A stretch of DNA of 64,000 bases, taken from the NCBI GenBank assembly GCA_963681505.1, contig OY811972.1, positions 2,082,163-2,146,162 on the forward strand, read 5' to 3'. Positions 1 to 32,313 of this stretch are shown one piece after another. The position numbers and the translations under genes are program-made. This DNA is from Eunapius fragilis. Taxonomy: Eukaryota; Porifera; Demospongiae; Spongillida; Spongillidae. The notes under the pieces are model-generated. The model did not search any database. It was not told the DNA's origin and was given only the letters and a program-made list of their open reading frames with translations. Within the stretch, counting starts at the first letter, position 1. Each line of letters starts with the position of its first letter.

Positions 1-82
1 TGCACATGACTCATATACCACAGAGGGAACTTGGCTTTGGTCAACATTGGGTCCTTTGGCAGCCATCTTCCTCCTCATGATC
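1..82 (-). CDS. Receptor copy 1: cytoplasmic tail exon (partial)
   Basis: Last visible exon of the large minus-strand receptor; it is cut by the window edge. Its acceptor (AG at 83-84 in minus orientation) joins the TM exon in frame: the last two bases of the TM exon (AT) plus G make Met, followed by Ile-Met-Arg-Arg-Lys, a basic stop-transfer. The tail then reads KGPNVDQSQVPSVVYES. The two paralogous copies at 30,234-30,423 and 48,294-48,498 show that it continues with a TVY(E/D)Q(L/V) motif, which fits the ITIM-like pattern (S/T/V)xYxx(L/V), and a third tyrosine in NIYE. The tail would lie in the cytosol and could be phosphorylated. The role is inferred from the motif only. Confidence 0.75.
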
Positions 83-1796
83 CTATGTGAGTGCAAGCCC
101 ATGAACTACTGTTGTGAGGAATTAGTAACATACACTTTTGCAGTTCCATAAAAAAAATTGGAGATGGGGGAGGGGGGGTGGAGTAAACACGAGTGGATAT
201 GGCCCTAATCTGGAGCAGCCATCAGAAGGCCACCAGCACATGCATGCGCACCTAGCATTCAACAGAAGTCTAGTCAAGAAGCTATATGACATCATATCAA
301 TGACACTGGACCACAGTGGATGGACTCATATAGCAAAGCTTGTTCCTGCAACTGCCATCGGCCTGTTCTAACAATTTTTTGCTATCTGTTCTGCAGTGCA
401 CATGAAATGGCATGGCCATATATGGTGTGATATGTTCCTCAACTTGCTAAATCATAGCATTGATGACTGGTTGCATGGCAACATCCTACAATGATAACAA
501 TATGCCTTGACACTATTTGTACAATGCACACATGCACCTCACACTAGCTCTGCATGGACTCAAAGAACTGTACTGCTGGCAGCCATTTTTATGGCAAACA
601 TTAATTCTATTTCAGGCTATGATCCTATGCAAGGGCCCTGCTCATCCCTGGTAGTTGAAATTCAAACATTACCACATGTTAGAATCATGGCTTAAATTAT
701 GCTAGCTAACTGAAAGGGCCTAGGGAATCCAGCTGTATACCCCAGTGGGGTCCTGTTACACAACTGAACTGCTAGTCATAATGCACATAAAATTCAGTTC
801 AGTGTAAGATGTTTTGCCATAAGGATTATCATAATGCATACAATCCTGTTAATGTCTATTGTCCTGAGTGTCCACCCGGGTCCGGGGGTACAATTGGACA
901 CCCGGGTGGACAGCAAAAAATGCTTTTGCTGTTCGGTCATGGAAGGGACCTAGGGGCATTTAACGGTACCGGCTTATAGAACAAGTCTTTCTAGGATCGG
1001 GCCGAGATAAGTAAGGCTTAAATCCTTTCGATACCCGTAAAACGAGCCGTGCTAGCGGACCTATCCATTGCGCTCCGTGCGGTACATACATATCGTATAC
1101 GAGCTACGTAAGGTAAGTTTTTTTTGCCAACGTTCATACAGATAGTAAAATAGGTGTTTCTCTGATCTGGACTAGTGTTTGTCAACAAAAGGTGATTGAG
1201 AGCTTTCAGCTGTCGGTTTAGGCCTATGTTTAAAAGGACATGTTACGCGTATAGACTATACTCGTATACAAGGCCTTTTAAACATAGGCCTAAACAGACA
1301 GCTGAAAGCTCTCAATCACTTTTAGTTGACAAACACTAGTCCAGAGAAACAGCTATTTTACTATCTGTATGAACGTTGGCAAAAAAAAAACTTACCTTAC
1401 GTAGCTAAGCTCGTATACTATGTGTACGTACCCCACGGAGTGTAATGGTAGGCCCGCTTAAATCCTTTCGATACCCGTAAAACGAGCCGTTTTAAGAGTA
1501 TCGAAAGGATTTAAGCCTTACTTATCTCGGCCCGATCCTAGAAAGACTTGTTCTATAAGCCAGTACCGTTAAATGCAACTAGGTCCCTTCCATGAGAGAA
1601 CGGCAAAAACTTTTTTTGCTGTCCACCCGGGTGTCCAATTGTACCCCCGGGTGGACACTCAGGACAATAGACATTAACACATCTAATAGTGTGGGGAATT
1701 GAACAATATAAATCTAGACACTTATAATCAATGCTCATTTCATTAAAAATTAGATTTCAAGGACTTCAGCAGTACATTATCAAAGGAATAACCTAC
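83..1796 (-). other. Intron between tail and TM exons (copy 1)
   Basis: This intron is shared by all three receptor copies (compare 30,424-31,332 and 48,499-49,441), which align along most of its length. It is longer in copy 1 because a palindromic element was inserted at 853-1,673. A G-rich tract lies near 165-180. I see no other gene here. Confidence 0.7.
853..1673. mobile_element. Palindromic TTAA-flanked foldback element
   Basis: An 821-bp element that is almost entirely an inverted repeat, with two arms of about 400 bp. It begins TGTCTATTGTCCTGAG and ends with the complement CTCAGGACAATAGACA. It is flanked by TTAA at 849-852 and 1,674-1,677. Receptor copy 3 has the empty site near 49,310, with a single TTAA at the same place, so the boundaries are directly demonstrated. 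A TTAA duplication is characteristic of piggyBac-type transposition. No ORF is present, so this is a non-autonomous element. Internal landmarks (CCCGGGTGGACA, AAATCCTTTCGATACCCG) recur in both arms. Confidence 0.88.
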
Positions 1797-2188
1797 ATGT
1801 ACGCTGCAATGGCAACCAGAATAGCTGACAGTACACCAATGGAGAGCCCTCCAATAAAGGCACCAGTAAGTGGTCCTGCCTGACTGCTGACTGCTTGTGG
1901 AGCACTCATAACTGGATACACCTTGAATGTATGACCATTAGCAGTGAGAGTTGGGAAGCCCTGCACCAGTAACCATGCAACCAGTTGTGCTGCTAAAGTA
2001 GACCCTGTGATGTCTCCAGAAGCAGAGGAATATGATATGGTGGCTGTATACAATAATGCCTGACCGCCTGAAGTACAGGTAATGGAGTGTTTGATGTCTG
2101 CTTCATCCAAACTGATCTTGTACAAACGAGTAAGAACCGTAGTGATGTTAGCATTTATTGAGGCAGCCATTGTAGCAAGTTGAGTATA
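1797..2188 (-). CDS. Receptor copy 1: membrane-proximal and transmembrane exon
   Basis: The exon opens after a good polypyrimidine/CAG acceptor and ends at a GTAGGT donor, which is GTAAGT in copies 2 and 3. It encodes about 105 residues of a membrane-proximal extracellular region of no recognised family (possibly SEA-like in size and position). This is followed by one hydrophobic segment, AFIGGLSIGVLSAILVAIAAY, and splices directly to the basic RRK of the tail exon. That gives a type I single-pass topology. The exon starts in phase 0, while the preceding Ig exon ends in phase 1, so a short exon between 2,189 and 3,127 may be missing from this model. The region is conserved in three copies within the window. 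Confidence 0.8.
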
Positions 2189-3127
2189 CTGAAATAAAAT
2201 CATGTGTATTAAAACATTAGAAAGGGCAAGCAAAATAAACCCCATCACTTGCATGTATTGAAATAAATGAAAAATCATTGCTTCACATCTTTGAGATACA
2301 TAATCTGATTCTTGGTGTGATAGATACAATTCAAAAAAATAAAACTATACTAGACTCGTGATCGTGGCACCGATCACATTGTATAATCATATACAGCTTA
2401 TATGTTCATGCAGTGCTACAGATTTTTATAAGTATAATCTTTTCTCTTCCTCCTCCTTATCCCTCTCCATCCTCCACTTCTTTTCATTGTCATATATTTT
2501 CTTCAGACAAAATAGGTGCAATTATCAAAACATTTCAAGTTCATTTGTTATCATATAGTATCTCTTATAGATGTAACGCATCGTCCTTAAACGTTATAAC
2601 AATCTCTATGTAGGGGTTCTGAGGATTAATTACATTATTGGGACTTTGGCGTTACATGTGGCTCCAGTATGATTACCATTTATGTACCAAAGTCCTGTAT
2701 AATTGATGTCTTAATAAACAGCATTATAGTTTTGCTCTATATGATGAGGATAGAGAGTACACTGGAATAAATGCTGTGCAGTCCATAAACATATTGTGAC
2801 ATACTGTTTAGTTTAGACATATGGCTAGTGACAGGTCTGGATATATATTGACCCCACAACAGTTTTAGATGAATTGGGTGAATTGTCAGAAGAACTAGAC
2901 CATACATAGAAACGTGTAGGATTTAACATTTCAAAGTTGGGAGGAGCTATAAGATAAAAGGTTTTTTATTACACTTCCAGTGTCATCATACATCAGCAGA
3001 GGCTGTCATGCATGCAATGTGCTTACACTCAAGTATGTGCATGTCCCCCCACTGGTGTACCGAAGCTCCAACTGGATGTTACCTAAGATGGTAATTTCAA
3101 ACACATATCACATACCCAACAGCTCAC
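2189..3127 (-). other. Intron, possibly hiding one small exon
   Basis: About 940 bp without a recognisable coding stretch. It contains a pyrimidine tract (2,440-2,490, GGA-rich on the minus strand). The corresponding tract in receptor copy 2 is greatly expanded (34,205-34,350). The splice phases of the flanking exons disagree (1 versus 0), so an unrecognised exon or a different acceptor is expected here. Confidence 0.5.
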
Positions 3128-3406
3128 CTTCTCCCTTGATGAGCACACTTCTCTCTGTTATCAGCACTGTGTTATCAACAGAGCACACATACAGACCATA
3201 GGGATTGGATGGTGTTGCTGTGTCAATAGTCACCACATTGGTTCCCTCTGCCACTGTCTGTCCATTCTTTATCCACCTGGAGGTAACAAATGGTGGATAG
3301 CCTCCCTGAGAGATACACATCAGAACTGTGTGGCCCGTGATACTGATGGACATCTCTGTACTTGATATATTGATGTTATTGTATGCTACCAACACCTGAG
3401 GTTGAG
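3128..3406 (-). CDS. Receptor copy 1: Ig-like domain exon (membrane-proximal)
   Basis: A 279-bp exon with a CAG acceptor and a GTGAGC donor, phase 1 on both sides. It encodes an Ig-like domain with a first cysteine in VLMCIS, a tryptophan in SRWIKNG about 16 residues later, and a second cysteine in the GLYVCSV (YxC) motif. It follows the unassigned extracellular exon and precedes the TM exon, so it is the Ig domain nearest the membrane. An inverted copy lies at about 33,255-33,535, where the frame is disturbed. Confidence 0.8.
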
Positions 3407-3470
3407 CTGAAATCAGAATTACAAGTATAACAACTCCTGTACTGACAGATTGCAATATCGAGTTACATAC

Positions 3471-3899
3471 TTGCATCGGCAAATCTGATGGAAGATAAAT
3501 CCAGCTGTATGTATGTGATACCTAATTTATAACTGACAAAGGAGTAGTAATCAGAAGGACAATAGAAAAAAGAACTGCCTGAGCCATAGTTGTAAATGTA
3601 GTAATATGGATTAATCATGAGGCTAGCATCCAGATAGCCACTATCTACACTTCCGACAAGAGGAATGGTTACATTTTGGTATGCACTGTTGGCTCCAGTC
3701 AGCAGTACACCACTAGAGGTCTGTATGCCACTGGGTGCCCTCAGTCCATTGTAATACAGCATAGAGGTAACATAGGTTATGTAGTTCCTTATGTACTCTG
3801 GTCCTGGCAACGTTGTCCAATTAAGTTGTATTGACAGTGGACCTCCAGTAGTCAGTGGTATGACTTGGGAAGAAATAATATGGTCTGATCCATACAAAC
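3471..3899 (-). CDS. Receptor copy 1: extracellular exon, domain not recognised
   Basis: A 429-bp, phase 1-1 exon between two Ig exons. The product is rich in Tyr, Ser and Gly, with LNWTTLPGPEYIRNY near its start, a tyrosine-rich PYYYIYNYGSGSSFFY stretch in the middle, and possible N-glycosylation sites (NWT, NVT). It has no Ig cysteine pair, although length and context would allow a divergent beta-sandwich domain. The same exon, inverted, is readable at about 32,781-33,165 in copy 2 and was therefore coding before duplication. Function unknown. Confidence 0.65.
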
Positions 3900-3956
3900 C
3901 TAATTTAAGACCTTAGAATAGATAACAATTTTCACCCGAAGAGAAAATGACATTAC

Positions 3957-4301
3957 CATCTGATGCAGTAACTGTAAATTTCAGACCAGCCAAAATGGGA
4001 TAATCTCTCAGTGAACCCAACATTCTGGCTTCACATTTTTCCTGCCTATTGCTGGTGACCACACCCATATGTTTAACTTCATAAGTACCAGCATCTGATT
4101 CAACAGTATTCATGATGGTCAGAGTGGTACTGTCTGGACTTATCATGACTCGACCTCCTGCTGTTATAGGATTGCCCTCATGATACCATGTAAGTGATCT
4201 CAGGTACTGGGTGACATCAATTTCTGTGACATTTACACTCAACACAATACTATGAGGTGGTACAAATGGTATGGTAGGATTGAGGCTTGAGGTGATAAGA
4301 C
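3957..4301 (-). CDS. Receptor copy 1: Ig-like domain exon
   Basis: A 345-bp, phase 1-1 exon with acceptor CCCCACAG and donor GTAATG. It encodes an Ig-like fold with LTWYHEGNPI (core tryptophan), STTLTIMNTVESDAGTYEV (the DxGxY turn of Ig domains) and a C-terminal FTVTASDG strand. The canonical second cysteine after Tyr is replaced (YEV), so the disulphide is probably absent or displaced. Extracellular, adhesive or ligand-binding by family analogy. Confidence 0.75.
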
Positions 4302-4348
4302 CTGTGGGGTAATATGGAAGTGATGATACATATTACAATGTCGCTTAC

Positions 4349-4636
4349 TTTGTACACTAATGTCTGCCTTTCCAACTCCAAGTGTGAATGTCCCACTGTT
4401 CACAACACAGTAGTAATGTCCAATGCTGGGATGACTGAGGCCAATGGTCACAGTAGCATTGGAGGCCTGAGGGCTATCTGAGTATAATGTACTTGAATAC
4501 AAGGCTGCCCTCCAAGTGTAGGTTACTCCAGGTGGGAGAGATGGATTAGAGTGGCAGTAAAGAGCTACAGTTGAGCCAATAGTGAAGGGACCATTGGGAG
4601 GATCAGTGGTTACCGTGACATCATAGAACACTTCAT
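4349..4636 (-). CDS. Receptor copy 1: Ig-like domain exon (first Ig)
   Basis: A 288-bp, phase 1-1 exon and the most canonical Ig domain in the window. It has TVALYCHSN (first Cys), TYTWRAAL (core Trp), ATVTIGLSHPSIGHYYCVVN (DxGxYxC-like turn with the second Cys) and a final strand ending DISVQ. It is the first Ig module after the SRCR block. The inversion breakpoint in copy 2 falls inside the equivalent of this exon, with 16 bp lost there (equivalent to 4,423-4,438). Confidence 0.85.
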
Positions 4637-4707
4637 CTGTAAGGTGGAGTGAAATACAGCACTACATCAATAGCATCAATAGCTGTATGGATGTGAGCCA
4701 TCATTAC

Positions 4708-6002
4708 CATTGAGGCATGATATAACAGCATCCTTGTCATGACCACAGTTGAGAGTACCAACATTTCCAATTGTGCATTCTCTCACATGAGATTCACTAC
4801 CAGTACATGATATGCTGCTAAGAACTGGACCAGTGATTGTGCGATACTTCCCTGATGATAGTGTGACACCTACAATAAGTGAATACTTAAGTTAATGTAT
4901 AGCATTATCATAGGTAATAATGCACAAACCTTTAGTATTGATGCCAAGTGATCTGCATATTATCAGTGCAGCTGTCTTGCTAACTCCAGTCACACACACA
5001 CTTGCCCAGAATCCATCTATCTTACATATTTTCAACCTTCCTTCTTTGGGCGATGGACCATCAGCTAAAAGTACATCACCATTAGAGCACTCTGGGATGT
5101 TTGTGGATGGACCAAGACATGATACCCCTGCACTGGTATTTGAGGTGCTGGAAAGTATGATATAAAACTGATTAAATGTATTGTAGTTTGTTAGCCTTTG
5201 AACTGAGCTGTTGGTGCACTGTCCAATGGAATATTCATTTCCACTGCAGGAAATATAAATAATTTCAAGTAAGGTTGTTCCTTTACCAAAGTATGATCCT
5301 CCGTATGGTATTGCCCCTGTTGATCGGATTGATAATTAAATGCAGTGACTAACTTTTAATGGTGCTTTTACTCACATTGATATGGATATCCAAGCTGTCT
5401 GCACACCACCAGGGCATTATTGTAGCTCCACCCACTGTCATAGATAGCCACCCACACTCCACTACGGCACACTTCAACACGTCCTTCATATGCAGTACTA
5501 CCATCAGCCAGACGTACTTGTCCCTCTGTGCAACCTGAGTTCACTGTAAGATATAGCATTAGCTACAGTTGATCTGCAGCACTGTAATGGTATTACCATA
5601 ACAACGTATTCCTACATCATAATCATGATTGTATGATGCACTTGTAGAATAACAGTCTGTCAGACGAGCCACACTACCCAAGCAGGATAATCCTGTTTGT
5701 ACCAATGATCCTGTTCCACCTCCATAATGTGATTGATAGAAAAAAGGACTGCCAAAATACTGTGCTGTACCAACTAAAAGGATTGGTGCATGGTTATAGC
5801 TAATTAGCACCAGTGAAGCAGTGTTTAACTTTGTTACATGAAGTGTTTCCAAACATTTGCTTGCATGCTATGTTTGGAGCATTGGTATCCCAGCTATATA
5901 CTGCAAAAAATGTGGTCCATGAACCATTGATACACATTTCCAGCCTTCCTTCAGTTAGTGTGTAGCCATTTACCAAGCGCAGACGTCCTGATTCACACAG
6001 AT
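4708..6002 (-). CDS. Receptor copy 1: SRCR domains 5 to 7 (five exons)
   Basis: Exons, in transcription order, are 5,838-6,002, 5,597-5,773, 5,376-5,543, 4,930-5,316 and 4,708-4,869, all joined by phase-1 introns with good GT/AG sites. They encode three scavenger receptor cysteine-rich domains, each interrupted mid-domain by an intron. One exon (4,930-5,316) carries the second half of SRCR6 and the first half of SRCR7. Diagnostic segments are [49 protein letters not shown] and AGVSC. A domain split over two exons is the arrangement known for group A SRCR proteins. The conserved W-x-x-V and CRQ cores are present in most domains, while SRCR5 is divergent (ACKQMFG). Extracellular. Confidence 0.85.
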
Positions 6003-6555
6003 CTTAATGAAGAGAGGGGAGAAATACACAAAGAGTACCTCTCAATAGAGAATACAGGAAAGAAACAAGCTTGCAATGAGTGAACTAAGTAGCCTTAAAT
6101 TCTTTTTATTACTGATACACAAGTATTGATTTTGGCATGCAAATTATTCTTGTAACATCATTATACTCCTTAATTGTCTTAAATCTTTGCAGCTGCAACT
6201 ATAAGAAACACATGTGGTACTAATCTTCATAAATGAGGCTGCATTTTATCCCTATTCGTACTAAATCAGTGCGGTAGATAAAAAAAACATGGTGCACAAA
6301 CGATCCCTTATGGCATGTGTTCATCAATCATTAAAAATTCATTTATCAGTATTGAAAGAAGTTGTGCAAAGTTATCTCTGAATTTCGCATGCCCAGTAAT
6401 ACAGCTTGGAAATAATTAAAAAAATCGTGTAAAATAAAATTCATTACAACTAATATTTATAACCTTTGAAACTTTCACATGCCCAGCTAAATACTTTTAT
6501 GATTTAATTCATATTCCTCAATGATGTGCATGAAACCATAGGCACAGCTATTCAC

Positions 6556-6720
6556 CTTGGCACTTTACCCCACTCTCTTGTCCTCTGTGGCAGTGATGAA
6601 CACCAACAGGATAAGAATATGAGGAAGAGCAACTTAGCAAACTGCTTTCTGTACCACTGCAGGATGTGCCATCCAACACAAATGGATTTTGACTTGGTCC
6701 AAATGGATAAAGCATAGCAC
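6556..6720 (-). CDS. Receptor copy 1: SRCR domain 4, second half
   Basis: An isolated 165-bp exon with acceptor TACACAG and donor GTGAAT, phase 1-1. It encodes the C-terminal half of an SRCR domain: YPFGPSQNPFVLDGTSC, then GTESSLLSC and ESGVKC, giving the C-x-G-x-E-x2-L-x2-C core. It supplies the otherwise missing second half for the N-terminal half at 12,609-12,779, so the two clusters of SRCR exons belong to one gene across a 5.9-kb intron. Confidence 0.8.
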
Positions 6721-6813
6721 CTGTGTATTATGTACATGCATAGTGTCATAATGATTAACGTCTCATCATAGTTCACACGGGGCCGTTAGTGCTCAGGTAC
6801 ATGTACTTCGTTG

Positions 6814-7093
6814 ACAAGTAAATACTAAACCTTCTCCATGAGAAGGTTGGTGCATGGGATATAGGATTTGAACGCAATGGTGGTGTTAAATGCAAAGAAA
6901 CAAGGGTTTGTAATAGTAAGGGAAAATGTTATATTTAGCCCGTTTGTATATAGCATGCATATACTATGATACATGACAATGACATTTCCCTTACTATTAC
7001 AGACCCTTGTTTCCTTGCTTTTTACACCACCATTGCCTTCAAATCCTATATCCCACCAACTTTCTCATAGAGAACGTTTTTTTATTTACTTGT
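6814..7093. mobile_element. Foldback element, ACAAGTAA family, copy 1
   Basis: The outer termini are ACAAGTAAAT and ATTTACTTGT. The inner arms carry the shared segments AGAAGGTTGGTG and GGTGGTGT, with complements TTTACACCACCATTGCC and CCAACTTTCTCA. The whole element is an inverted repeat with a short centre near 6,945-6,965. There is no ORF and no clear target duplication. Three relatives occur in this window. Confidence 0.82.
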
Positions 7094-7614
7094 TTCATTT
7101 ATTTGTTCATGCACATTATTCCGATGCGTAATTGATCCGTTGTGCATGTACCCATACGGACTAAAAAAAAAAAGAACAGGAGTCGTCATTGGGGCCTAAT
7201 ATTATCCACGAAATAGTTGTGAGTATAAGTCGGATAACATGTTTAATATGCAACAAGGCACAGTAATATACACGGTTAATCATTTAGTTTAATGTAGTTG
7301 GAGATTAGTGCTGTATCATTGTTTTTAAAATTGGTTGTTCCATAAAATACAGCACAGTACTTTTTAAGCGTAATAACAATAATAATACGTTATGTTATTA
7401 ATAATTGTGAACAAGGTTAATGATTATATTGATTACAAGAATTCACACACATACAGCTAACAAGTACGCGACCTAGAATATACTTATCCTAACGCACTCG
7501 CTCTCTCACTCATATAATACAACAATTTTTAAACTAAAAACTCTTCCTCTACACTGTCCGTCTTAATTGTTCCCAACAAAGAAGCAGATTGCAAACTGTT
7601 AGAACAATAAATAT

Positions 7615-7883
7615 ACAAGTAATAAAAACATTCACTAGACGAGAAGGTTGGTGGTACATAGGAATCAAAGGTGATGGTGGTGTAAAAAGCAAGGGAACAA
7701 GGCTTCTGATTGAAAAAGAAATATGAAATAGAAATATATTAGCAACATGTTCTTGCTAATATAGATCTATTTCATTTTTCCTTTTCAACCAGAAGCCTTG
7801 TTCCCTTGCTTTTGACACCACCATCACCTTTGATTCCTATATACCACCAACCTTCTCGTGTAGAGAATGTTTTCATTACTTGT
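7615..7883. mobile_element. Foldback element, ACAAGTAA family, copy 2
   Basis: It has the same termini as the copy at 6,814 and the same first 100 bp or so of arm (AGAAGGTTGGTGG, GGTGGTGTAAAAAGC). The core (CTTCTGATTGAAAAAG and its complement CTTTTCAACCAGAAG) is different from the other copies but symmetric within this one. Confidence 0.85.
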
Positions 7884-8359
7884 TTCCTAAATTTTTCTGG
7901 TGGATTTGGTATTGTATTTAGTTCTTGAAACTCATAGAATCAGGTAGCCTAAACGTCAACTTGCGCGATCATGACAGGTTTATTATAGAATCTGCAATTC
8001 TGTTGAGATGTGTACCAAATATTACACTAGTCCCCAGACTATCTCCATTGAGGAAAAAAGACGACGGAGGAGAAATTTTAGGTGGGACTGGGTACGGACG
8101 ATGGGAACGAGTATTTTTGTTCTCTAAAAGTACACCGTCTTATGACACAGATACAGCCCAGAACTGTTCTCCTTTTTGATATCGCTCGATTGCCACTAAG
8201 AGCAAAATGACCCGATTCTTAAATGTCCTGCTAGACGTGTGTGACGTTTTTATAATGACATTCATGATACTGCAGGATTCCTATATGGAACCTACTCGCG
8301 TAGGTTCTGATTTGTACCTACTCGCCGATTTATTACATAATTTTACACCCACAAGTAAA

Positions 8360-9290
8360 GTCAATTCATGAGGGCAGGAACTCCCTTGCCAAAACGGCTC
8401 TGGCAATGGACCTGACCAAGGTGAAGTTCATCCTAATGTACATGTCCACCAGGATGGAAGGTTTGAGAGAGGACATGCTGATGGCAAGGTGGGATGCCAA
8501 CCTAGAGAATGTGTGATGAGCCTCCTTACCCCAGTTGCAGAACGTCTCGACAGCTAAGGGAATGCACTTCCACCCCAATTCCTGACATTTGGGACCATTG
8601 GTGAGAAGCTTGCAGGTCTCCGCTGCTGTAGAAGCTGCACCAGATTATCCGCATGACTCCCTTAGTATGGCTGGGCAAAGAGGAGATGTTACAGTGACAT
8701 CAAAAGATGCCTGCCCCTTCCCACCCAGCAATGAGCACATCTGCAGGTCTGGTGTGGCTGTGATCTCTTGTAAGACCATGACCCTTCTCCACACTCACAC
8801 TCAGATGAGCTCGCTGACAGAAGTCCACAAAGACATCACACAAGTGATTGTGCCTTATCACTACATCTCCCCCATGCCTGCAGGTTACAGCATGGTGACC
8901 CAGGGGATCAAGAGCCACATCCTAACAAAAGGGGCACACAGTCCTACCAACACCCACACCTAGCACCACCTCACTGCAGTCTGGAACTCATTAGACTCCA
9001 TATGTAGACCTAAGCCCATGAAAAGGGACCTCTGACACCCATGAAGATGGATGAGGGGCTGAAACAGACAAGAGTCTGGCTTTGTCGGCTGGGCAGGATG
9101 CTCCCAACAAAGATTTGAATTGATCCTCACCAATCTTGCTGGACAGCTCTCGCTGAGTGGTGGGAGAAGCGAGGGCAGACTCAACCGTGATTGCATGATG
9201 TGAGGAGACCTTGGAGTTATAGGCTATGACTGCCTGCTGAAGATGGTGATTGTTGGATTGGCCCAGGCCTGAAAAGGAAAGCGAGGCAAT
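8360..9290 (-). pseudogene. Remnant of RT/restriction-like-endonuclease LINE, C-terminal part
   Basis: Three minus-strand fragments (8,366-8,578; 8,700-8,918; 8,960-9,196) in different frames match, piece by piece, the C-terminus of the better-preserved element at 56,579-58,609. Shared landmarks are LDPLGHHA(A/V)TCR, GGDVVIRHN, TRPADVLI and CIPLAVET(F/Y)CNWG(K/E)EA. They cover the zinc-binding and restriction-like-endonuclease part; the reverse transcriptase part is absent. Frameshifts separate the pieces, so this is dead. It lies inside the SRCR4 intron. Confidence 0.8.
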
Positions 9291-10035
9291 AAAAAGTCAG
9301 CGGCGGCATGGCAATATCAGAATAAAAGTCCCCTGCTTTTTTCATTCCGTGCCTTTTTAAGCACTGCGCCTGCACTAACTTTACAGACAGCAGCATGTGC
9401 AGATCTGGTACACACCTTTTGCGTTAACCATGTGTGTCTTGCAAAAGGCATCATTTAACGCAACTAGTAAAGTGCTATTCATAAGAATAGCTCTTTCAAG
9501 GCCACCCTTATACTCGCTTAGTACAATATCCTTAACTTTGGTTCGTACAGAGAGTAGCTACAGTGAAAAAGGAAGTGCGTACATGCAACATTATGTATGT
9601 GCAAAACCATACGTCTAGGCTTGAAAGCTATACTTATATAACACAGTTGCCCACAAAATTGGACAATTACTTTCATGCAATCACACTATCTGCTAGTAAC
9701 CGCAGGTGTAACTGAAGCCATATCAATGCACTGATGATATCAGCACGATTGCTGAGCTCATGTAGTTACAGTTATAGACACAATGCATATGACATTTGCT
9801 AAATCTTGCGTCAGACTTGCGTGAACTAGAGAGTTCAAGCATGCATCTGATCTGATAAGCAGCTGACACACTCAGGGAAAATGTCTATTTCAAAATCACG
9901 TAACGGCACTGACAAAAGGCAACGCTTATGCAATGTTCAGCCAATGTCATATAAACCAAGCTTAGTAATAGTCATTTAAATGCCTTTTGAATAACTTTAT
10001 CGGTCGATGGCCTCGTTTGTCTTTGCAGTAGTAAC

Positions 10036-10179: not shown

Positions 10180-12608
10180 GAGACTAGCATTGCATGGCTA
10201 TGCAGGGTACGCTTTGACTTGGTCCAAATGGATTAAGGGTACGCTTAGCCTTCACGTACCGCACTCTCTTCGCCAAGCGAGCAGATTCAGGACTCCCCAA
10301 ATAACGTTGCCTTTTAGCGGACCGTTTCTTTTCTGGGTCGTTTTTTGAGCTACTTTATATAAAATTACGTCTTACAAGTTATCTAGTTATGCGTCTTACA
10401 TAGACCGTAAAGTAGATTGTTTCCAAAAATATAACATCGGCTTTTTTAATAAATGCGGTTTTTCCAGACCATTCTGAAGCTATTGGTGGAATGTTCATTG
10501 TTTAAAAGTGTTCCTATCCAACTTATGCGTTGCCAAAAGGAGCTAGAAAGAGGAGACCATGTTCCTGGACTGGGTACGAGGACGGGCAGTAACCTTTTGT
10601 TCTCTACAACCGCGCGCGCGGTTCTGTGACATAAAAAAAAGACGAAGCTGCTCATTTTGTATAGATAATTAGATTGGAAACGGGGCATTGAGCCCCGTAT
10701 ATGAACTCATTGTAATGCGTTCAATTGGATTAACGGTATTCCTCCAATACTTCAATGGGCCATTCCTTCAATACACAAGTACTGGAGGAATAAAGTTAAT
10801 CCTATTTCAATTAAAAGTAAATAAATGCAATCCATCAATAAGGTCTATATAGCCAGCGCAGACTCCGCGATGGCGCTAATTCGATGAAGTGACGCCTCGC
10901 CCCTTTCGTGACGAAAGTAAGTTGAGAGCTTAGTAAAATCTGACAGAAGAAAACGATAGCACAAAAATGCCTACATTTGGACAAACTGTCGTGATGTTCA
11001 TAGTCCTTTAGAATCCGAGATACAGAATTTGGTGCTTACAGCATTTTTAGCAACTAACCCCCTATAAACTTCCCTTTTTAAATAAATAAGTAGCATGGCC
11101 AGATGTAGCACAAAGTTTTACGAACGGTGAGGTGCGTTTAGGTTGGAGGATTTTAGAGTAACTCACACGTTTTTGACATCGCCATGAACTAACCGACAAA
11201 ACTACCCTGGCAAAACTTTTAATACTTGTTCCAGATAGCTACATAAATTCTACATATGGTAGTACCATATGCTACGTAACTATGCTCAGCGTTTAGTCAT
11301 GAAAAAAACAACGGGTGGTGATCCATTTTTCTGTTGTATAAATGGCCACCATAGATTATTTAGACGTCTGGACCATCCTCATGTTTTCCCTTTCAGGGGA
11401 AAATCCTCCGAGGCCTCAACTGGTCTCTTAGGCGTCTTTAACGTTTCGTCATTTGGTTGGCCATCGATGTCATAGTCAAGAAGCTGGATTCCAGGAATGA
11501 AGCGGATCGTTGTAACGTCTACTTTACTGGACTGGGTCATGATTTTATTTGCTAGCATTTTTCCTTGTATGCTGGTAATGGCCAGCAACACATTTTTTGT
11601 TTGCATGGAGTAATTCTGAATACAGTTTAAGGTACTTAAACCTAGTTAACCGACCACCGCGCCTCATTACCAAGACAATCACGTGAGACGTGACACGCAT
11701 GCGCATGTCAGTAGTGCGAAACAATTGTGCGGAATAATTTTCTTTTCTTTTAACTGACTTCTCCATCACTATCCGGGATGATGTTAGTCTGTGGGCAGCA
11801 CGGTACGAGTGGGTGGTGCCATGTCACCACACACACCCAAATTTGCCGCGCCACGCCTACCCTGGCCCAGACCCTACCAAGAGCATGTAGACCCAAATCA
11901 ATGTAAGGTTTGGGTAGGTGTGATTGGCATGTGTCGTTGACTACTGCGTCGTTCACAGGCTCGTACTCTGATCTTTTTAGTTCTGAAAGAAAGGCTAGCG
12001 CATTTGGTAACTGTGTTTTGGTTAGGCTCCGTTGTCATCGGTTCCGCTTTTGTCTTCATTTCAAATATGATAAGTGGTGAGGAGCATCTCGGAGTCTGCG
12101 CGTGAAGCAGTGTTAATTGAGTCCGTTTCCAATCCCTCTACTCTAATATCTATGCTTCTAGTTCGATTGCTATTGCTATAACAAGTTCAACGATCCGATC
12201 GTCGGGAGTCTTGTTAGAGACGGGTTGCGTATTTTTAATGAGATTCATAGTCGGGGTCAAATCCGATAAGGAAGTATATCTGGCGAAACTTCCGATTGTT
12301 TCCTGTAAGAAGACTGTCTAATATAAATGTAGCTTTTGACTGGTGTATTCAAATGGGCCTCTTACGCATGGAGATGACGATTTGATAGCATCTGGATGGA
12401 AGGCATCCGGAGGCATGCACACGCCCATAAGGTATAAGTTTAACGAAGTGTCTTTCTATCCTTATGCTCAGAGGATCCATTGAAGTGGTGGAAGCTGTGC
12501 ATTAATGTACACTGTCAGGCATAAATGTGCATGGATGAGGCAAGAAGAATATACTTATAGTGTGTGACCTAATAATTACCACTGATAGTTATAAGTAGAA
12601 TCATGTAC

Positions 12609-12779
12609 CTGTCCTTGAATAATTGAGTTGCCTGCAAACAATTTCCGCAACTCCATAGTTCTGAGGATTGCACACAGACCCCCATATGGTGACTCCAGGA
12701 CTGGACTGGACACATAGCTCAATTCTCCCTTCTCGTGCTGTTGGTCCTCCAGCCAAACGTACTGATCCTGGTTGGCAGC
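12609..12779 (-). CDS. Receptor copy 1: SRCR domain 4, first half
   Basis: A 171-bp, phase 1-1 exon with acceptor TCTCTGAAG and donor GTACAT. It reads GCQPGSVRLAGGPTAREGRI, ELCVQSSPG, then VWG-like IWGSVC and EIVCRQLNYS, the standard N-terminal half of an SRCR domain. The second half is at 6,556-6,720. The acceptor and the first bases of this exon are duplicated upstream (near 13,019), inside a tandem intron duplication. Confidence 0.82.
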
Positions 12780-13260
12780 CTTCAGAGAAAAAGGTTAGTA
12801 TAAATTATTCGGCAATGAACTCGAGATTAATATTGTTTTGTCACAGACAAGGTAGACATGCGTCCATTTTTATAAGCACGAATGTATTATTTTGAGTTGT
12901 ATACGAGATGCACTGGTATTCCCAACTCATTAACTTTCAATTACAACCAAACATAACTATAAGCATTGAAGTGGGGGGTTCCATTACAATGAAATACTTG
13001 CAATTTACTCAATTAAAAGTTTGGTTGGCAGCCTTCAGAGAAAATATGTGGCAGCAGAACACAAGATTAACAATGTTTCTTTGTAGACAAGAAGGACATG
13101 TGTCGAGTTTCATAAGCACACGTGAATAGTATAGTTGTATATCTAGTTTATGCACTTATATTAACTTTCGATTGCAACTCAAGGTTTTAGAAACGAAAAA
13201 CATAGCGGGTGGGGGGCCCGGGGTCCATTGTAATGAAAGACATGCAATTAACAGTTTGGT
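12770..13260. repeat. Tandem duplication of intron sequence (about 245-bp unit)
   Basis: The block beginning GTTGGCAGCCTTCAGAGAAA at about 12,771 reappears at about 13,019. It is followed in both cases by related stretches (AGACAAG-G-AGACATG, TTTATAAGCAC or CATAAGCAC, TTAACTTTC(A/G)ATT, a G-rich run, then CAATTTACTC/AATTAACAGTTTGGTTG). A third partial start is seen near 13,250 at the end of the SRCR3 exon. The units are diverged, so the duplication is not recent. Confidence 0.6.
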
Positions 13261-13273
13261 TGCCACAACTTGC

Positions 13274-14810
13274 CTTGGTTTATTGGGTAGTTTTCGCATC
13301 TCAGGCCAACACTGCTCCGTTGTGTAAAGGTTCCATAAAAATAATAATTGTATATACTGCAGGACCATACAGACGCCTCATTTCCATTGCAATTAATCTC
13401 GTCAATCACCACAATACCCGTGCCCAGTCCAAATGTGCTGTCATAGATAAATGCAGCTAGAAATTTAAAAAATCAGTACAAGAAGTTTCGAATGTAATAA
13501 AATGATTAAATTACCCGGATTTTGAAATCCTAGCTGTCTGCAGACGACCTGACCGTCTCGTGAGTCCCACGATCCACTCCCTCCACGTATCATCCCCCAT
13601 TTTCCAGAGCTGCATACTTCCACATATCCCTCGTTCCCATCAGTGCCATTAACCAAACGGACAGCTTGTCCACTGCAGGATTCTAAATATTAAATTCAGT
13701 AATGAAGTATACTACATTATTTATCCTCTGCTGACCTGTTTGTACCACCTTCCCTCTACAGCTGACTCCCGCTCTTGAGGACAAGTCACATGACACACTG
13801 TTGCCATTGGAGCAGCTGGTAATATAGCTTTCGTATCCATAGCAATCAAAACCATAAGAATACGTTGGCATTATGGGATAGCGTGAATAGCGATAGTTAT
13901 TAGCTGCGATGTCTGTGGTAAGGAGTTCAAATGAACACTGAAATGATGTAAATCAACGTACTGGAGGTAGGGAAGCCTAGCTGTCTACAAACCACCAGTG
14001 CGTCCTGGTAGGTGAAATAGCCACCACACAATCCATTCCACTTCCCGCCATTGCATATTTCCACGTTCCCTTCTGTGCTTACGTCACCACCACTCAATCG
14101 GACTTGACCACCGGTACAAGCTGATGCTGTGCAGAAGAGAATTAAATAATTGTCGAGCTTGAGTGCACGCTACTCATACTTGAACAACTGACACCGGCAT
14201 CATTATAGCCATGACTGCAGGGAGAGTAGTCCCCGATCAGGCTCTGGTAGTCACATTGGAACAGAGATAGCTCCGTGCCTCGGCAGTTTACGTTGTTCAC
14301 GTAAATTGCTTGAATTCCACTTGAATTAGAGTTATACAGTGAATATGTACCTTTTTTAGACGGGAAGGGGAAGGAGAGAGGGGTGCGTGGGCGGGAAGTG
14401 ATGTAACTGCTAAAAAGACGTTTTAGTCATCGGCCAAGCAGGTATGAACATTCCACTTATGATGTGAACAGTTGGCGACATGCATACAAGTCTACATTAT
14501 TATATATGCATTATTGCACCATGTAAATTTAGCTCAGAAATCATTTGGTGTGCCAATGGTATATATATTTGAATTTCCCTAGCTAGTTCAGGCTTACAGT
14601 AACATGAATTGCACAAATTGTTATACCTGTACTTACTTGCATCAGTTGACTGGTATCCCAGCTGTCTGCACACCACCGCGGCATCGTTACTGTCCCATCC
14701 AGAACTGCACACCGTACCCCACTCTCCTCCGATGCAAACCTGTACTATCCCGTAGTAGGCGGTTCCACCAACTAGCTGGACTGATCCCTGGTAGCATCCA
14801 GTGAAGGCGA
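13274..14810 (-). CDS. Receptor copy 1: SRCR domains 1 to 3 (six exons)
   Basis: Exons in order are 14,637-14,810 with 14,180-14,350 (SRCR1), 13,962-14,126 with 13,736-13,912 (SRCR2), and 13,515-13,682 with 13,274-13,456 (SRCR3). All introns are phase 1 and fall in the middle or at the edges of domains. Core motifs are [74 protein letters not shown] and SVGLRC. The last exon ends at AAG followed by GCAAGT, so a GC-AG intron is proposed there. With domains 4 to 7 downstream this gives seven extracellular SRCR modules. Confidence 0.86.
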
Positions 14811-15826
14811 CTGCGAGTATAGGTGAGGGAACGACTTGAATGGTTTGTATGCACGCAATGTATCAGTATTCGCTCAACTGTGTCTTTTAGTTCTGCGCAT
14901 AGCAATTAATGCATGCATTAGCTTGTAGCAGTTATGTAATTGTATGGGACTCTCCGAGAAAACGATTTATCGCTATATTTTAATTGGGACAGGGTCTGAG
15001 AAAATGCCGGTCCTATCGCGCTTATTATATAAAAATGATTTACGTTTGAATATATATATAATTTCCGAACAGTAAGCGCTATTGACTTCCTATTTTCATC
15101 ACTTCATACTACATCATTTTTCTTTGGTAACAGAGATTCTGGGGTCTTGCATTAATTTCGTGTTAGTGTTGTAACGTCCGTTACCCCTTAGGGTTCAAAT
15201 CCTTCTGCAGGTGCACTTCGAATGTGGTTTGCACCTAGAGGGATCATGCACCTATTGATATGTCCTGTTCGTTAATTACTTGATTCTTTTTCTACTTCTA
15301 TAGCGAACGGAATTCGTTAAGGATTCAGTTCCCATCTGCCATCGCCTTACCAGAGATTAATATTTATAAATATTATCCCCGGCCTTATGCACCACGGTAT
15401 GTACTATGCATATGGTAGTGATTACGTGCGCGCACAACGTCGTGTGCGTGTCGCGGTCGGTTCGTGCACTCCTTGCGCGCCCATTTATCGGCGTACAATG
15501 CCATAACAGTACATCAGAACCATGAGATAAAGTCGGTGCGTGGGGAGGCGGGGTCGTGTTGCGCATATTCAGGGCTGCCGCGATATATCGCGATATTTTT
15601 TATATATCGCGATATTTTTTATATACCGCGATATTTTTTATATATCGCGATACGCGATATTTTTTTGGCTTATCGCGATACAAACGTGCACGGGAATAGA
15701 CGGAGAATCACGGAGATAGATGAAATATTTTTACTACTTGAAGATTTAGCAGAGATGTAATTAGTACCAATGTACCATGCGAGTACACAACGGCAAAATG
15801 CTATCACGTGCACTTTGCATTATGCC

Positions 15827-16180
15827 TCAAGAATGTGTGCATTTACCCATGGCCAGCCATTCTGGTAAGTGGCTCCATCGTTTTTTCTGGAGTGTATTCT
15901 TTGCTGTGGAGAAAACCCTTTCTGAAAGTGTAGTTGAGGCAGGGATAGCTAGATACTTCCTTGCCAGTTTGGCAACTTGAGGGAAGTAGGATTCATGCTT
16001 TCTCCACCAATCCATCGCTATCCTGAAGTTAATTTCAGCCTCCTTAAGATACCTCTGAAATTCGACTTCAATGTGATCATGAGTACTACGAATTACTTCA
16101 CCATCACATTCATCTTCATGTCCAAACAGAATATCAAATTCCTCCTCTTGTTGAGTAACTGCTGCTTTCACACTGTACAT
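15827..16180 (-). pseudogene. hAT transposase C-terminal (dimerisation) remnant
   Basis: 118 codons including stop. The stretch WWRKHESYFPQVAKLARKYL followed by AIPASTTLSERVFSTAKN is the hallmark hATC dimerisation segment near the end of hAT transposases. It is separated from the BED finger (16,556-16,804) by about 380 bp without transposase similarity. The acidic catalytic core that normally lies between them is not visible, so this is a remnant of an internally deleted element. Confidence 0.88.
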
Positions 16181-16555
16181 CGATCAGTTCAGTAGTCTTT
16201 GTCCTATGAGGTACCACAATAGCACCATTGGTTCTCTAATTAAACTCTTAGCTATCCAATAAAGCAGGTGGCAGCAAGTTTACGGTAAAGGCTTTGACTA
16301 GAAGCTCGTTAGCTCTGGTCAGTTTTTCTCCCTTCATAACTGGGTTGTACCTGAGTCACGTATATCTGTCCAGGATTCCTCCTTTACCAGATGGTCTAGA
16401 ACCAGAACACCCTTTATCTGTGCTTGAGCATGGACTAGTGGTACTACTGGTGGTGGTACAGCCTGTGCGCGTAACTTCGAAGCTACATGTGTAAGTTGCA
16501 TGCATGATGCATGTTAATTGAATGAGTTTTGTGATTAATACAAGGATGCATAGAC

Positions 16556-16804
16556 TTACATTTTGCTATCTTCTGCAACACCATTAACGGATTTTAGGTG
16601 ATGCCAAATATTGGATGTATTGTTGCCCTTTCTGGACACCCATGCATGCACAGCACCTGTTGTACATGCACAGATTGCTTTTTTGTGCCACCCAAAATGG
16701 TCCCACGGATTACTCCTAAGCATTTTGCGGTCAACACCTACGATATCCTCCTTGTCTACAGCGTGATAGGACGGTTTATCTGTCAATTCTTTTTTCGCAG
16801 CCAT
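16556..16804 (-). pseudogene. hAT transposase N-terminal BED-finger remnant
   Basis: 83 codons including stop, starting MAAKKELTDK. WDHFGWHKKAICACTTG and GNNTSNIWHHLK match the layout of a BED zinc finger (aromatic-x-F, Cys pair, TSNxxxHL), but the spacing of the first cysteines is disturbed. It is the upstream part of the transposase whose C-terminus is at 15,827-16,180. Confidence 0.7.
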
Positions 16805-17049
16805 AACTGAAGCAGCAAATAGCGCTGCAATGAATTAATTATTGATCGATGAATATATTTACTATATCGCGATATAAAATCGCGATACTTCACTCATATC
16901 TCGATACATCGCGATATACACGATATCGGCTACAGACCATATCGCGGCAGCACTGCGCATATTTTTTAAGAGACACCTAGCTCTGCGGTCCTCTACAACT
17001 TATTTCTTACGCACTGGATATTAGTCTGTCGATCATGAAGTTTCAGTTA

Positions 17050-17064
17050 ATGTATGTCTATGTG

Positions 17065-17121
<57 letters not shown>

Positions 17122-17830
17122 ACATATATCTGCAATGGGGGTGACAATAAATGGTGGGGGATCATACATCTGTGCGTGTAGAGCATAAATCCTAACACTA
17201 AGAAAGAATGGTTGCTTATAGCCCTGCACTCGACCACACCTCCCCCCATTCTGAACTTATAGTGAAGGAAGGGAATGGGACATGAGTGTGTAGTGAGGTT
17301 ACGTGACACAAAAATGTAGTGGAGAGGTTATAGGACACGCACGTGTAACAGGACAATGAACAGGACAATGCGGTGTTGTGTGTGTATGTGCGTGTGTGTG
17401 TGTGTGTGTGTGTGAGTGTGTGTGGATTTACTTGTAGCTGCAAGGGGTGTGATTCGCAGATGAAATTTAAAAAGAATGGTGCATCTGTGCTTTCAGAGAG
17501 TATATCCCGGCAACACAACTGAAAGAAGGGTTTGCTTTTCAGCTCAGCTGTGGTATTAACTCAACCGCACCTCCTCCCACTCTGAACTCATAGTGAAAGA
17601 AGAGCATGAGCGTAATGAAGGCTATGAGACACAAAAATGAATGAGACAGGACCATGTAGTGGATGTAATACCATGTAGTGGAGGTTATGAGACACAAGCG
17701 TGTGTGTGTGAGCTAGTGTGTTGTGGTTGTATATTTGCAAGGGGGTGTAACATGCAGATAAAATGAAAACGGAGGGATATGGATGGTTGTTGGTTAATAC
17801 ATCTGTGTGCAGAGCGTAAACCTTTCAGCG
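17050..17830. repeat. Three-unit tandem repeat with (TG)n microsatellites
   Basis: Each unit of about 330 bp starts with a TG run (about 17,070-17,118, 17,380-17,425, 17,698-17,720). It then reads TTTAC-T-T-(G/C)TGCAA followed by a G run, GTGTGCAGAGCGTAAA-like text, a GAACT(T/C)ATAGTGAA segment and GACACAAAAATG. The third unit is partial. The minus-strand open frames here are poly-(HT) and are not genes. Confidence 0.75.
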
Positions 17831-19696
17831 GCTTTTAGGTCCGGGCCCTTTTTGCTGCCACGCGATTAATCATTTTCTCGTGGACCGTTCCATTTATAAC
17901 GATAATTATTATACATCCGCAAGTTCAATTAAGTGGGTTGGGCTACTTTTATCCATAAATAGTGACATGGTGTACCGATGATTGCTATAGAGAGTTGCTA
18001 TCATTAAGCGTACTCGCAAATGTGCAGATTTTTTACGTAGCGAAGAGGTCCTCTCATAATGTATGTGTACGAAACAATAGTTATAGTACACGTGGAAAAC
18101 AAAAAACACTATTCTTTTCATTTTCGTTTTCGGCTTAGCTTTTCAGGCCTCTAAAACTTCAGTCTGGGACAAAACACACTCAAGTAGTGTTCTAGTAGGG
18201 TGTAGATCAAAGATCGGGCTACGCCCAACTAGTAGCAAAGAATGTTTTTTAGCTTTGTTACCCCACCAGGCATTAGCCCAAATCCTGCATTCATGATTGT
18301 ACATGTCCACCCATTAACTGACATGTTATTCGAGTTGGTACATCTTTATACTGTCCAGAAAGGATAACTGCTGTTAATAAAAGCCATCATCACCTGTATG
18401 CAATTTATTCTTTACTGCTGCTTCTTGTACTTTGCATCTGCACGCTCTGCAGAAACTTATAGGGAAATCAAACACTGTCATTGCACATGTCTAGCATGTC
18501 AAGAACTCCATTGAAAAGGTAGCACAGGTGTATTCTGTTTGAGATTCTCGTTTCCACCCTTATATCTTAAACAGTTCAGTTATGACCACTTACTCTCTGA
18601 CAGGACTTTTGGACATGAGATTGCGTGTTCCCGTTGTCGTCGTGTATGAAATTTATACATATGGGTGTGGCGTACGTGCATTATTCATGGTCCCGTCTAA
18701 CCGTGTCGTTCGTTGACCAGAAAATAAGCCCCAGCACGCACTAAACGCAAATGTGATGTACAATGAATATTGGTCTTTGAGTAGGAGTAGGTTCATCTGC
18801 CAGGTGGTTTCAAGAAAATCGGTTGCCGCCTGAGCACATAATGAAGGCAATAAAAGCCATGCCTTCAGTAGCCACAAGCGCGGCAACTATAGGGCAAAGG
18901 AGAACTTAGTTTGACCGTGCATATTATTCTTTTAAAGTATACGAAATTGGTTGTGGAACAGCTCAAAATTATATATTGAATTTGTAGTGGCAAAAAAAGC
19001 CTAAATAGCCAAATAATTAGCTCCTCTAGGATCCCGAACACCAAAATACCGTAATGTTCGATGTGACAAATTGCACAATGCTATGCAATGCAGACGCTAT
19101 CGCATCCCGCAACACATATAAGTTCCTAAAATAACAATGAAGATGTCAAAAGTCCACTGTTCCGAGGTGTGCAAGTCCACTGTTCCGACCTGCCCCTGTT
19201 ATCTATATGATCCAGGAATATCATTGATAACATGTTTACCTTAGGTGGATTAATATTGTTTTACTATCGTGGCTGGGGTGCTATTCTATAGTCCGTGTGG
19301 GATTGTGGGATTGAGTTTGTCGATGAGTTCTGTGAGAAGATTGGTTGGTTGGGAAGGGGGGGGGGGGGGGGGGGGGGGGCGTACTTGACGATAGTAATTT
19401 TTAGAGATGTCCAGCCGTGTAGGTCCACAGATAATCTATGTTATCTCTGGTATAGGTCGAAGGGTTTGTATAACTAATACTAAAATGAACACAAAATGGT
19501 AGTACGCACATAAAGACGATGCAAAAAGATTAAAAAGAAACCCAGGCTTCCTAAACAGGTAGGTCAATCGCACTGGATCTAAGAGCTCGTCCCTGTGATG
19601 ACCGTGCACCCCACATTATGGAGAGAAATATCCGCCGTAATTACACCCACGTATCTCATATAATTAAGTACTAAAACTTGCTTCTACGTGGGCGTA

Positions 19697-19790
19697 GTTT
19701 AAGTGATAGCTACACCAATCACATCGCTTGGACTGAGAGTGCCCCCAAAAAGTTGACATTTTCCCTGTAGGTGCAATCACTTAAAGACTG
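19697..19790. repeat. Short inverted-repeat element, also found truncated at 49,918
   Basis: The ends GTTTAAGTGATAGCTACACC and GGTGCAATCACTTAAAGAC are imperfect inverted repeats. The internal segment ATCGCTTGGACTGAGAGTGC followed by CCCCAAAA and TTGACATT is repeated at 49,926-49,962, right at the junction between receptor copy 3 and the 13-bp satellite. Confidence 0.6.
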
Positions 19791-20123
19791 ACATGCATGC
19801 AGGCTTTTCCTATCGCTATAAACACCACCTCGGGAGGCATATGGAACATCATCTTGGGTGGCAAAGGGTTAATTACCTTGCAGCCTATAGCAGAGTATGT
19901 TATTAACCCAAGTCTCACATACAAGTGGCTACATATCCATTAACTTTCATGTTCTAATCAGTACGCGGTCTATACGCATGCACAATAATTATATAATGAA
20001 TCTGAGACCCAGCGCCACTTTAAGCACGCGCGCATGTTGTGAAGTTTCAATTTTCATGTGTCTCAGTCGTACTGCATCACACGTACTTGTACAAAGGAGA
20101 ATGTTTTAACACACACGACGTAC

Positions 20124-20178
20124 CTAGTTTGTCAACAGCAGTGGTTGCTATGAGCAATACTGAGAAGATCCAATGCAT
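20124..20178 (-). CDS. Receptor copy 1: signal-peptide exon (proposed first exon)
   Basis: The ATG at 20,176-20,178 (minus) opens MHWIFSVLLIATTAVDKL, a short hydrophobic leader, followed by a GTACGT donor in phase 1. Spliced to 14,810 it reads on in the SRCR frame ([16 protein letters not shown]). Phase and reading frame are therefore compatible across a 5.3-kb intron. An upstream in-frame ATG exists at 20,281-20,283, but the internal one gives a cleaner leader. Assignment to this gene is inference; another first exon is possible. Confidence 0.55.
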
Positions 20179-30087: not shown

Positions 30088-30233
30088 ATACTAAACGTTA
30101 CTTCGTATCTTGCTGCATTCATACACAACTATGCATACACAATGCAGTTCAAATAGCTAGCAAACTAATGAATTGGACTGCACACACATGTCTCAACGTA
30201 CACTTATATCTTGCACCACTAACTGCCTTTAAG

Positions 30234-32280: not shown

Positions 32281-32313
<33 letters not shown>

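Follow-up and report, generated by a model that had tools for sequence, protein, structure and literature searches.

A tandem family of candidate recognition receptors combining SRCR domains, Ig-like domains and a tyrosine-bearing tail in the sponge Eunapius fragilis

Background

CD163, WC1, CD5 and CD6 are receptors with several SRCR domains, one transmembrane (TM) segment and a tail used for signalling or uptake. SRCR domains are divided into group A, in which the domain is spread over two exons and has no cysteine after the sequence RQLG, and group B, in which each domain occupies a single exon and contains additional cysteines; in the sponge aggregation receptor, SRCR domains are accompanied by SCR repeats. 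Here we analyze a 64,000-nucleotide stretch of the genome of the freshwater sponge Eunapius fragilis (positions 2,082,163 to 2,146,162 of contig OY811972.1, hereafter contig C2; the whole stretch is referred to as the window), which contains, on the minus strand of its positions 1-20178, a gene termed copy A that is predicted to encode seven SRCR domains, immunoglobulin (Ig)-like domains, a TM segment and a tail. The most likely interpretation, in which we place about even confidence, is that copy A belongs to a tandem family of type I recognition receptors of ~1,490-1,510 residues, with a tail that resembles the immunoreceptor tyrosine-based switch motif (ITSM) and would dock SH2 proteins.

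SRCR-like domains have been reported in association with fibronectin III (FN3) and Ig domains in three sponges (PMC4772301), SRCR-Ig combinations are named for two more sponge species (PMC6208332), and 158 of the 296 SRCR genes of Amphimedon lie in tandem arrays (PMC10855680). As such, therefore, both the combination and the array are already known. The statement in the original prediction for this locus that SRCR receptors and Ig receptors are, as a rule, separate is weakened by PMC4772301 and PMC6208332 for sponges and by PMC7940838 for a mammal. The likeness to the known sponge SRCR arrays (Amphimedon, PMC10855680; Stylissa and Xestospongia, PMC4772301) lies in expansions, tandem arrangement and the co-occurrence of Ig and FN3 domains. 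However, seven SRCR domains, Ig-like domains, a TM segment and a tail with three tyrosines are not described as one tandem family in the accessible parts of these two reports, nor did we recognize an SRCR-Ig-TM family with a tyrosine-motif tail in the open-licence literature on sponges, as far as the accessible text of its items goes (including PMC11999971, PMC2248247 and PMC8242945).

CD163, WC1, CD5 and CD6 are assigned to group B in the accessible part of PMC2906472, whereas copy A has two-exon SRCR domains without the cysteine after RQLG, and additional Ig-like domains. The mammalian chimera FCRLS (PMC7940838) is likewise an immune protein with both Ig and SRCR domains, but its SRCR domain is of type B and its origin is placed in a eutherian ancestor; in copy A the Ig part comes after seven SRCR domains.

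Gene structure

Spliced together, the 21 minus-strand exons of copy A give 1,453 residues of open frame, which runs to the window edge. Comparison with other members of the family shows that copy A is a real gene and supports the view that it is one gene encoding one membrane receptor, because its structure is kept in paralogues and because the ratio of nonsynonymous to synonymous divergence (dN/dS) is 0.42 (A-B), 0.41 (A-C) and 0.42 (B-C) among the three stop-free copies A, B and C.

The leader exon E1 (MHWIFSVLLIATTAVDKL; 20124-20178, minus strand, as are all exons that follow) ends in phase 1 and together with its upstream DNA matches nine places of the genome, including itself. SRCR1 is encoded by E2 (14637-14810) and E3 (14180-14350), SRCR2 by E4 (13962-14126) and E5 (13736-13912), SRCR3 by E6 (13515-13682) and E7 (13274-13456), and the first half of SRCR4 by E8 (12609-12779); E2 to E6 and E8 are supported by the exon model, Pfam and paralogues, while E7 has a GC donor, and the projected site in copies B and C is likewise GC. 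The second half of SRCR4, E9 (6556-6720), lies beyond a 5.9-kb intron and is supported by paralogues and by the cysteines on either side of that intron. The exon model and paralogues further support E10 (5838-6002) and E11 (5597-5773) as the two halves of SRCR5, E12 (5376-5543) as the first half of SRCR6, E13 (4930-5316) as a fusion of the second half of SRCR6 with the first half of SRCR7, and E14 (4708-4869) as the second half of SRCR7. Thus, the seven SRCR domains of the original prediction stand, each split over two exons; SRCR1-5 have two exons of their own, and the region 14810-4708 comprises 13 exons, as SRCR6 and SRCR7 share E13.

The Ig-like modules, which had also been proposed earlier, are borne out in exons 4636-3128: Ig-like 1 in E15 (4349-4636; exon model and Pfam, below the cut-offs if scanned alone), Ig-like 2 in E16 (3957-4301; a match to I-set, with the canonical cysteines replaced as judged by reading the sequence) and Ig-like 3 in E18 (3128-3406; exon model and Pfam), with E17 (3471-3899), a 143-residue domain without detected homology and among the most divergent parts, between the latter two. 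They are followed by a 56-bp exon, E18b (GNIQLELRYTSGGTCTYLS; 3027-3082), which leads from phase 1 to phase 0, has AG/GT borders and forms, together with its splice sites, a conserved block in an alignment of 11 copies. E19 (1797-2188; phase 0 to phase 2) encodes a membrane-proximal domain and the TM segment, and E20 (1-82; IMRRKMAAKGPNVDQSQVPSVVYESCA...) the start of the cytoplasmic tail, which is cut by the window edge, the genome beyond reading N. The coherent exon model proposed originally is retained, but it had put all intron phases except one at 1 and had missed the 56-bp exon at 3082-3027; with this exon, the 20 introns comprise 18 of phase 1, one of phase 0 and one of phase 2. Another candidate for a phase-changing exon (PPNFEMLNPTRFYVW..., near 2946) was ruled out by frame-breaking indels in the 11-copy alignment, and a motif TVYTQL that would have arisen at the start of E19 was dropped together with it, as were search hits containing this candidate. 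The leader (20178-20124) and the TM segment (in 2188-1797) had both been predicted correctly, according to the exon model and the paralogues; hydropathy exceeds 1.6 over 19 residues in two stretches, the leader and residues 1401-1430, the second followed directly by RRK.

Copies B (C2:2023700-2069012) and C (C2:1964202-1999167) have the identical order of 21 exons without an in-frame stop and read through for 1,491 and 1,514 residues, respectively. Their splice sites were looked for where the exon borders project, and a border could be moved in steps of three, by no more than 45 bases, to the closest AG or GT; shifts of 3-9 bases were needed for E9 alone in copy B and for E3, E4, E5, E9, E16 and E17 in copy C, and the GC donor of E7 was assigned manually. 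E20 of copy C gave a weak match at the DNA level (E 0.086) and a protein match with 46% identity (E 3.8e-13). The leader intron measures 5.3 kb in A, 24.1 kb in B and 11.6 kb in C, and the SRCR4 intron 5.9 kb, 11.4 kb and 1.2 kb, respectively. Splice support for the 5.9-kb and 5.3-kb introns, which the original prediction had named as a check, is thereby provided in comparative form, by order and frame kept in the stop-free copies B and C.

These data bear directly on the alternative that the SRCR part and the Ig part belong to different genes, or that the locus is a decaying copy. The 5.3-kb and 5.9-kb introns would fit such a view, as would the retrotransposon-like frames nearby, three broken or truncated copies (two in the window, at 30-36 and 48-50 kb, and one at C2:2431.8 kb) and five 3' ends without a detected leader. 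Nonetheless, we regard it as highly improbable: order and frame are repeated in two stop-free copies, at least one 3' end lies between any two successive leaders, and the 5.9-kb intron lies inside SRCR4, whose halves hold matching cysteines as judged by reading the sequence. By the same reading, domains 1, 2, 4 and 7 hold both the SRCR cysteine C2 of the first half and its partner C7 of the second half, and domains 3, 5 and 6 lack both.

The E19-E20 intron (1.7 kb in A, 0.75 kb in B, 0.64 kb in C) contains in copy A a nested long inverted repeat (882-1650; outer arms of 163 bp, 94% complementary), which may be a foldback element that inserted here.

Domain composition

The Pfam scan of copy A, which covered the first 1,276 residues (as did the PDB search that returned CD163, below), identified seven stretches of the SRCR superfamily (PF00530; 371.8 bits, cut-off 26.1) and three stretches of Ig_3 (51.2 bits, cut-off 30), with Ig_2 (31.4, cut-off 27) and I-set (26.2, cut-off 23.7) also passing. 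A domain search on the spliced product had been suggested as a check, and it recovers the seven SRCR and three Ig_3 stretches, while E17 and E18b+E19 remain without an identified family. Scanned as single exons, E15 is below all cut-offs, E18 passes C1-set alone (21.5, cut-off 21) and E16 passes I-set (26.3, cut-off 23.7). The best PDB match is CD163 (317 bits). CEACAM1 was another match in that search (E 4.5e-4); none of its stretches passes alone, and nothing is drawn from it.

By reading of the sequence, four of the SRCR domains contain eight cysteines and three contain six, with an additional N-terminal pair; all seven are split over two exons and lack the cysteine after RQLG. Six cysteines per domain are given for group A in the accessible part of PMC2906472. 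The marks of group B are lacking, as the domains are two-exon domains without the RQLG cysteine. Sushi/SCR repeats were not found among the ten Pfam families matched at E up to 1 in the first 1,276 residues.

The two remaining extracellular parts gave no Pfam matches even at E 10 (E17 and E18b+E19). For E17, comparison with Ig3 by hhalign yielded a probability of 0.2% from shallow alignments, a profile search against PDB reported nothing credible, and a structure model from one sequence was unusable (predicted local distance difference test, pLDDT, 33.4). For the E19 region, the profile search against PDB reported only coiled-coil fusion proteins and adhesin fragments (best E 0.0067), none of them credible, and a model of E19 without E18b from 11 sequences was likewise unusable (pLDDT 33.8). 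From the order of strands and helices one might guess that E18b+E19 form a SEA-like membrane-proximal domain.

Cytoplasmic tail

The original prediction described a tail with three tyrosines, one of them in TVYxQ(L/V). The tail exon starting at 82 is upheld, but neither the three tyrosines nor TVYxQ(L/V) is confirmed for copy A, because the letters come from two other tails in the window, at 30.4-30.2 kb (TVYEQL) and 48.5-48.3 kb (TVYDQV). We therefore turn to the paralogues, of which 14 out of 15 could be read (C2:2356.5 kb was left out, its tail match being ~8 kb away). All 14 tails have tyrosine Y1 (VxYE), 11 have Y2 (TVY[DE][QH][VL]) and 13 have Y3 ([NS]IY); the exceptions at Y2 are one tail truncated ahead of it, one with Asn and copy C with Phe.

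The pattern TxYxx[VIL] of an ITSM is found in these 11 of 14 paralogue tails, and in seven of the eight leader-paired copies with a tail read. The strict immunoreceptor tyrosine-based inhibitory motif (ITIM, [SIVL]xYxx[IVL]), by contrast, is absent from all 12 readable contig C2 tails and present in both tails of contig C17 (VRYETL; one of them also has the ITSM), while it arises in 14.7% of shuffles of the 2131.6-kb tail. Thus, of the inhibitory-type motif proposed earlier, the strict ITIM form fails in 12 of 14 tails, whereas an ITSM-type motif fits 11 of 14. The motif is suggestive, and the sequences are related by descent, so that they do not amount to 11 independent observations.

The same form of motif occurs in SLAM-family receptors, in which we know of no SRCR domains. 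The ITSM consensus TxYxxV/I/L binds SAP, EAT-2 and SHP-2, and the ITSM2 peptide of CRACC, a SLAM-family member, contains TVpYSTV; the SLAM-family tails carry several ITSMs each, in contrast to one per tail in the sponge family (PMC3958483, accessible part).

The observed gene structure, family, sequence constraint and paralogue tyrosines are the basis on which we propose how such a receptor might work. Ligands would be bound distally, by the seven SRCR domains, above a stalk made up of the Ig-like domains, the divergent E17 domain and the membrane-proximal domain, followed by one TM segment and, to judge from the paralogues, a tail of ~60 residues with three tyrosines. At the cell surface, where we infer it to be located, the receptor may bind microbial or cell-surface ligands; clustering would lead to phosphorylation of the tail tyrosines, and SH2 proteins could then dock at the ITSM-like TVY[DE][QH]V, with uptake or activation being tuned as the presumed direction of the signal. 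Phosphotyrosine signalling by the family is plausible on the grounds of these motifs, and the genome contains 70 SH2 matches.

Several results weigh against this proposal. In copy A the tail is readable to ...SVVYESCA, i.e. to the first tyrosine, and the next ~5 kb are N. The ITSM tyrosine has been lost in two of the 13 aligned tails, including that of the stop-free copy C, and a 14th tail is truncated ahead of it; the ITSM pattern arises in 3.6% of shuffles of a single tail (2131.6 kb), and the dN/dS of the tail, 0.58 over 12 copies, indicates weak constraint. Searches of the genome for SH2 and phosphatase domains (the latter with 150 of 365 candidates scored) did not pin down a tandem SH2-phosphatase gene. 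Finally, in a protein search with residues 840-1400, none of the 7,993 scored candidates reached E 0.001, and the stalk is therefore without an outside relative in that search.

CD163-like SRCR receptors function in uptake and carry a tyrosine motif for it, and a scavenger or endocytic receptor, in which the tail tyrosine serves as a Yxx-hydrophobic sorting signal for clathrin-mediated uptake without any phosphotyrosine switch, is a serious rival, even if we think it unlikely. YEQV, YDQV, YEHV and YEQL all fit Yxx-hydrophobic, and Yxx[ILV] is found in 12 of 14 tails; such a pattern is cheap, however, as it occurs in about half of the shuffles of a single tail. Against this rival, the sorting-type Y2 is the least conserved of the three tyrosines (11 of 13 aligned tails), whereas all 13 retain Y1 and Y3, and of these Y1 fits Yxx[ILV] in the two C17 tails only and Y3 in none.

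In the phosphatase search, most of the Y_phosphatase matches listed (of 192) are on contig C10, many of them at 5.5-8.5 Mb, with 150 of 365 candidates scored; they represent a large expansion of tyrosine phosphatases.

Tandem array and divergence of its members

A search with the TM/tail region revealed 14 copies on contig C2 (1.965-2.468 Mb), all on the minus strand save the inverted piece of one, and two on contig C17. The leader exon with its upstream DNA was found in nine places, all of them on the minus strand of contig C2, so that the array spans ~0.53 Mb, with at least one TM/tail 3' end between each leader and the next. The nine units (leader/nearest downstream 3' end, in kb of contig C2) are 2497.7/2467.6, 2454.9/2442.9, 2415.6/2396.8, 2318.1/2305.0, 2278.7/2254.2, 2201.4/2164.3, 2102.3/2084.0 (copy A), 2068.9/2024.6 and 1999.1/1965.1; five of them contain exactly one 3' end and the other four one or two extra. 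Of the nine leader-bearing units, three (A, B and C) were read from end to end. No leader was detected for the five extra 3' ends, which lie at 2431.8, 2356.5, 2250.7, 2131.6 and 2113.5 kb; the 2431.8-kb copy has three in-frame stops, unlike the stop-free A, B and C. Two of the five are in the window: the 2113.5-kb copy (30222-35861; tail TVYEQL) is broken by a ~3.3-kb inversion, in place, from about residue 69 of E15 to about residue 65 of E19, and the 2131.6-kb copy (48297-49788, minus strand; tail TVYDQV) is truncated to E19 (residues 16-130) and E20.

Synonymous differences are distributed unevenly over 18 exons between A and C (chi2 73.6) and between B and C (chi2 64.8; 17 degrees of freedom, with none of 20,000 simulations as large in either case), and evenly between A and B (chi2 17.5, p 0.42). 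Between A and C, Ig1 (dS 0.04) and SRCR2 (0.09) are near-identical, and the membrane-proximal/TM part (0.66) and SRCR3 (0.55) are distant. Exon exchange or gene conversion would produce such a pattern in the A-C and B-C comparisons. The highest mean dN was found for E17 (0.20; ten exons in four copies, not using the E13 and E16 values of copy D, which come out too high as a result of stop signs being dropped by the aligner). Wherever the ratio is defined in A-B, A-C and B-C, dN/dS does not rise above 1 in any domain; in the B-C leader it is undefined, as there are no synonymous differences.

Clustering of paralogues, which is a criterion for allorecognition families, is a feature of this array. 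Botryllus FcoR and Hydractinia alr are likewise one-locus receptor families with tyrosine-motif tails, and FcoRs are type I proteins with Ig domains; no SRCR domain is named for FcoR in the accessible part of PMC12065747, which argues for a role in allorecognition. The array could thus encode individual-specific receptors that compare tissue identity, in the manner of the Hydractinia alr and Botryllus fuhc loci, as its ~0.53-Mb tandem arrangement, the uneven A-C and B-C divergence, as from gene conversion or exon exchange, and the tyrosine motifs common to alr and FcoR families (PMC12065747, accessible part) would suggest. This allorecognition or self-recognition role is nonetheless doubtful, given that the A-B divergence is even and that dN/dS does not exceed 1 in any domain for which it is defined in the three pairs. 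Contig C2 was also without the Calx-beta domain, which we take to be a candidate aggregation-factor domain, among the matches listed (125 matches; 150 of 325 candidates scored). A large Calx-beta cluster, possibly of aggregation-factor-type genes, is found on contig C4 (12.0-13.4 Mb), i.e. on a contig different from that of the array.

More broadly, we speculate that the array might be a sponge recognition complex of about nine SRCR-Ig receptors that exchange sequence and share an ITSM/ITIM-type readout, directed at self/non-self or at microbes, in parallel to alr and FcoR; we advance this only tentatively, as an idea with a small chance of being right.

The two family 3' ends on contig C17 are at 1041582 and 1071333; in the pieces fetched upstream of them, which are gapped, we found one match to an SRCR half-domain (E 0.004) and no leader, E15 or E16. 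Elsewhere in the window, a 1,861-residue open frame (40098-45683, plus strand) resembles a BEL/Pao-type retrotransposon polyprotein, and frames at 51493-55867 (plus) and 56579-58609 (minus) resemble pieces of a Ty3-type retrotransposon and a reverse transcriptase, in both cases by reading, no search having been made. Near the right end, 62004-62429 (minus strand) has a weak Death-domain match below the cut-off (E 0.028).

Biological implications

To our knowledge, the signalling outlets of sponge SRCR repertoires are mostly unknown. The tie between SRCR recognition and a short tyrosine-bearing tail is a candidate route from recognition to signal in a sponge cell. According to the accessible part of PMC12065747, there is no conservation of candidate allorecognition proteins across sponges, cnidarians and ascidians, and motifs of the ITIM type or of the immunoreceptor tyrosine-based activation motif (ITAM) type occur in the cnidarian and ascidian ones. 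The locus would let one ask whether sponges share the ITIM/ITAM-type pathway of cnidarians and ascidians, and, if the array is indeed a recognition complex, it would mean that a sponge couples SRCR-based recognition of self/non-self or microbes to SH2 signalling.

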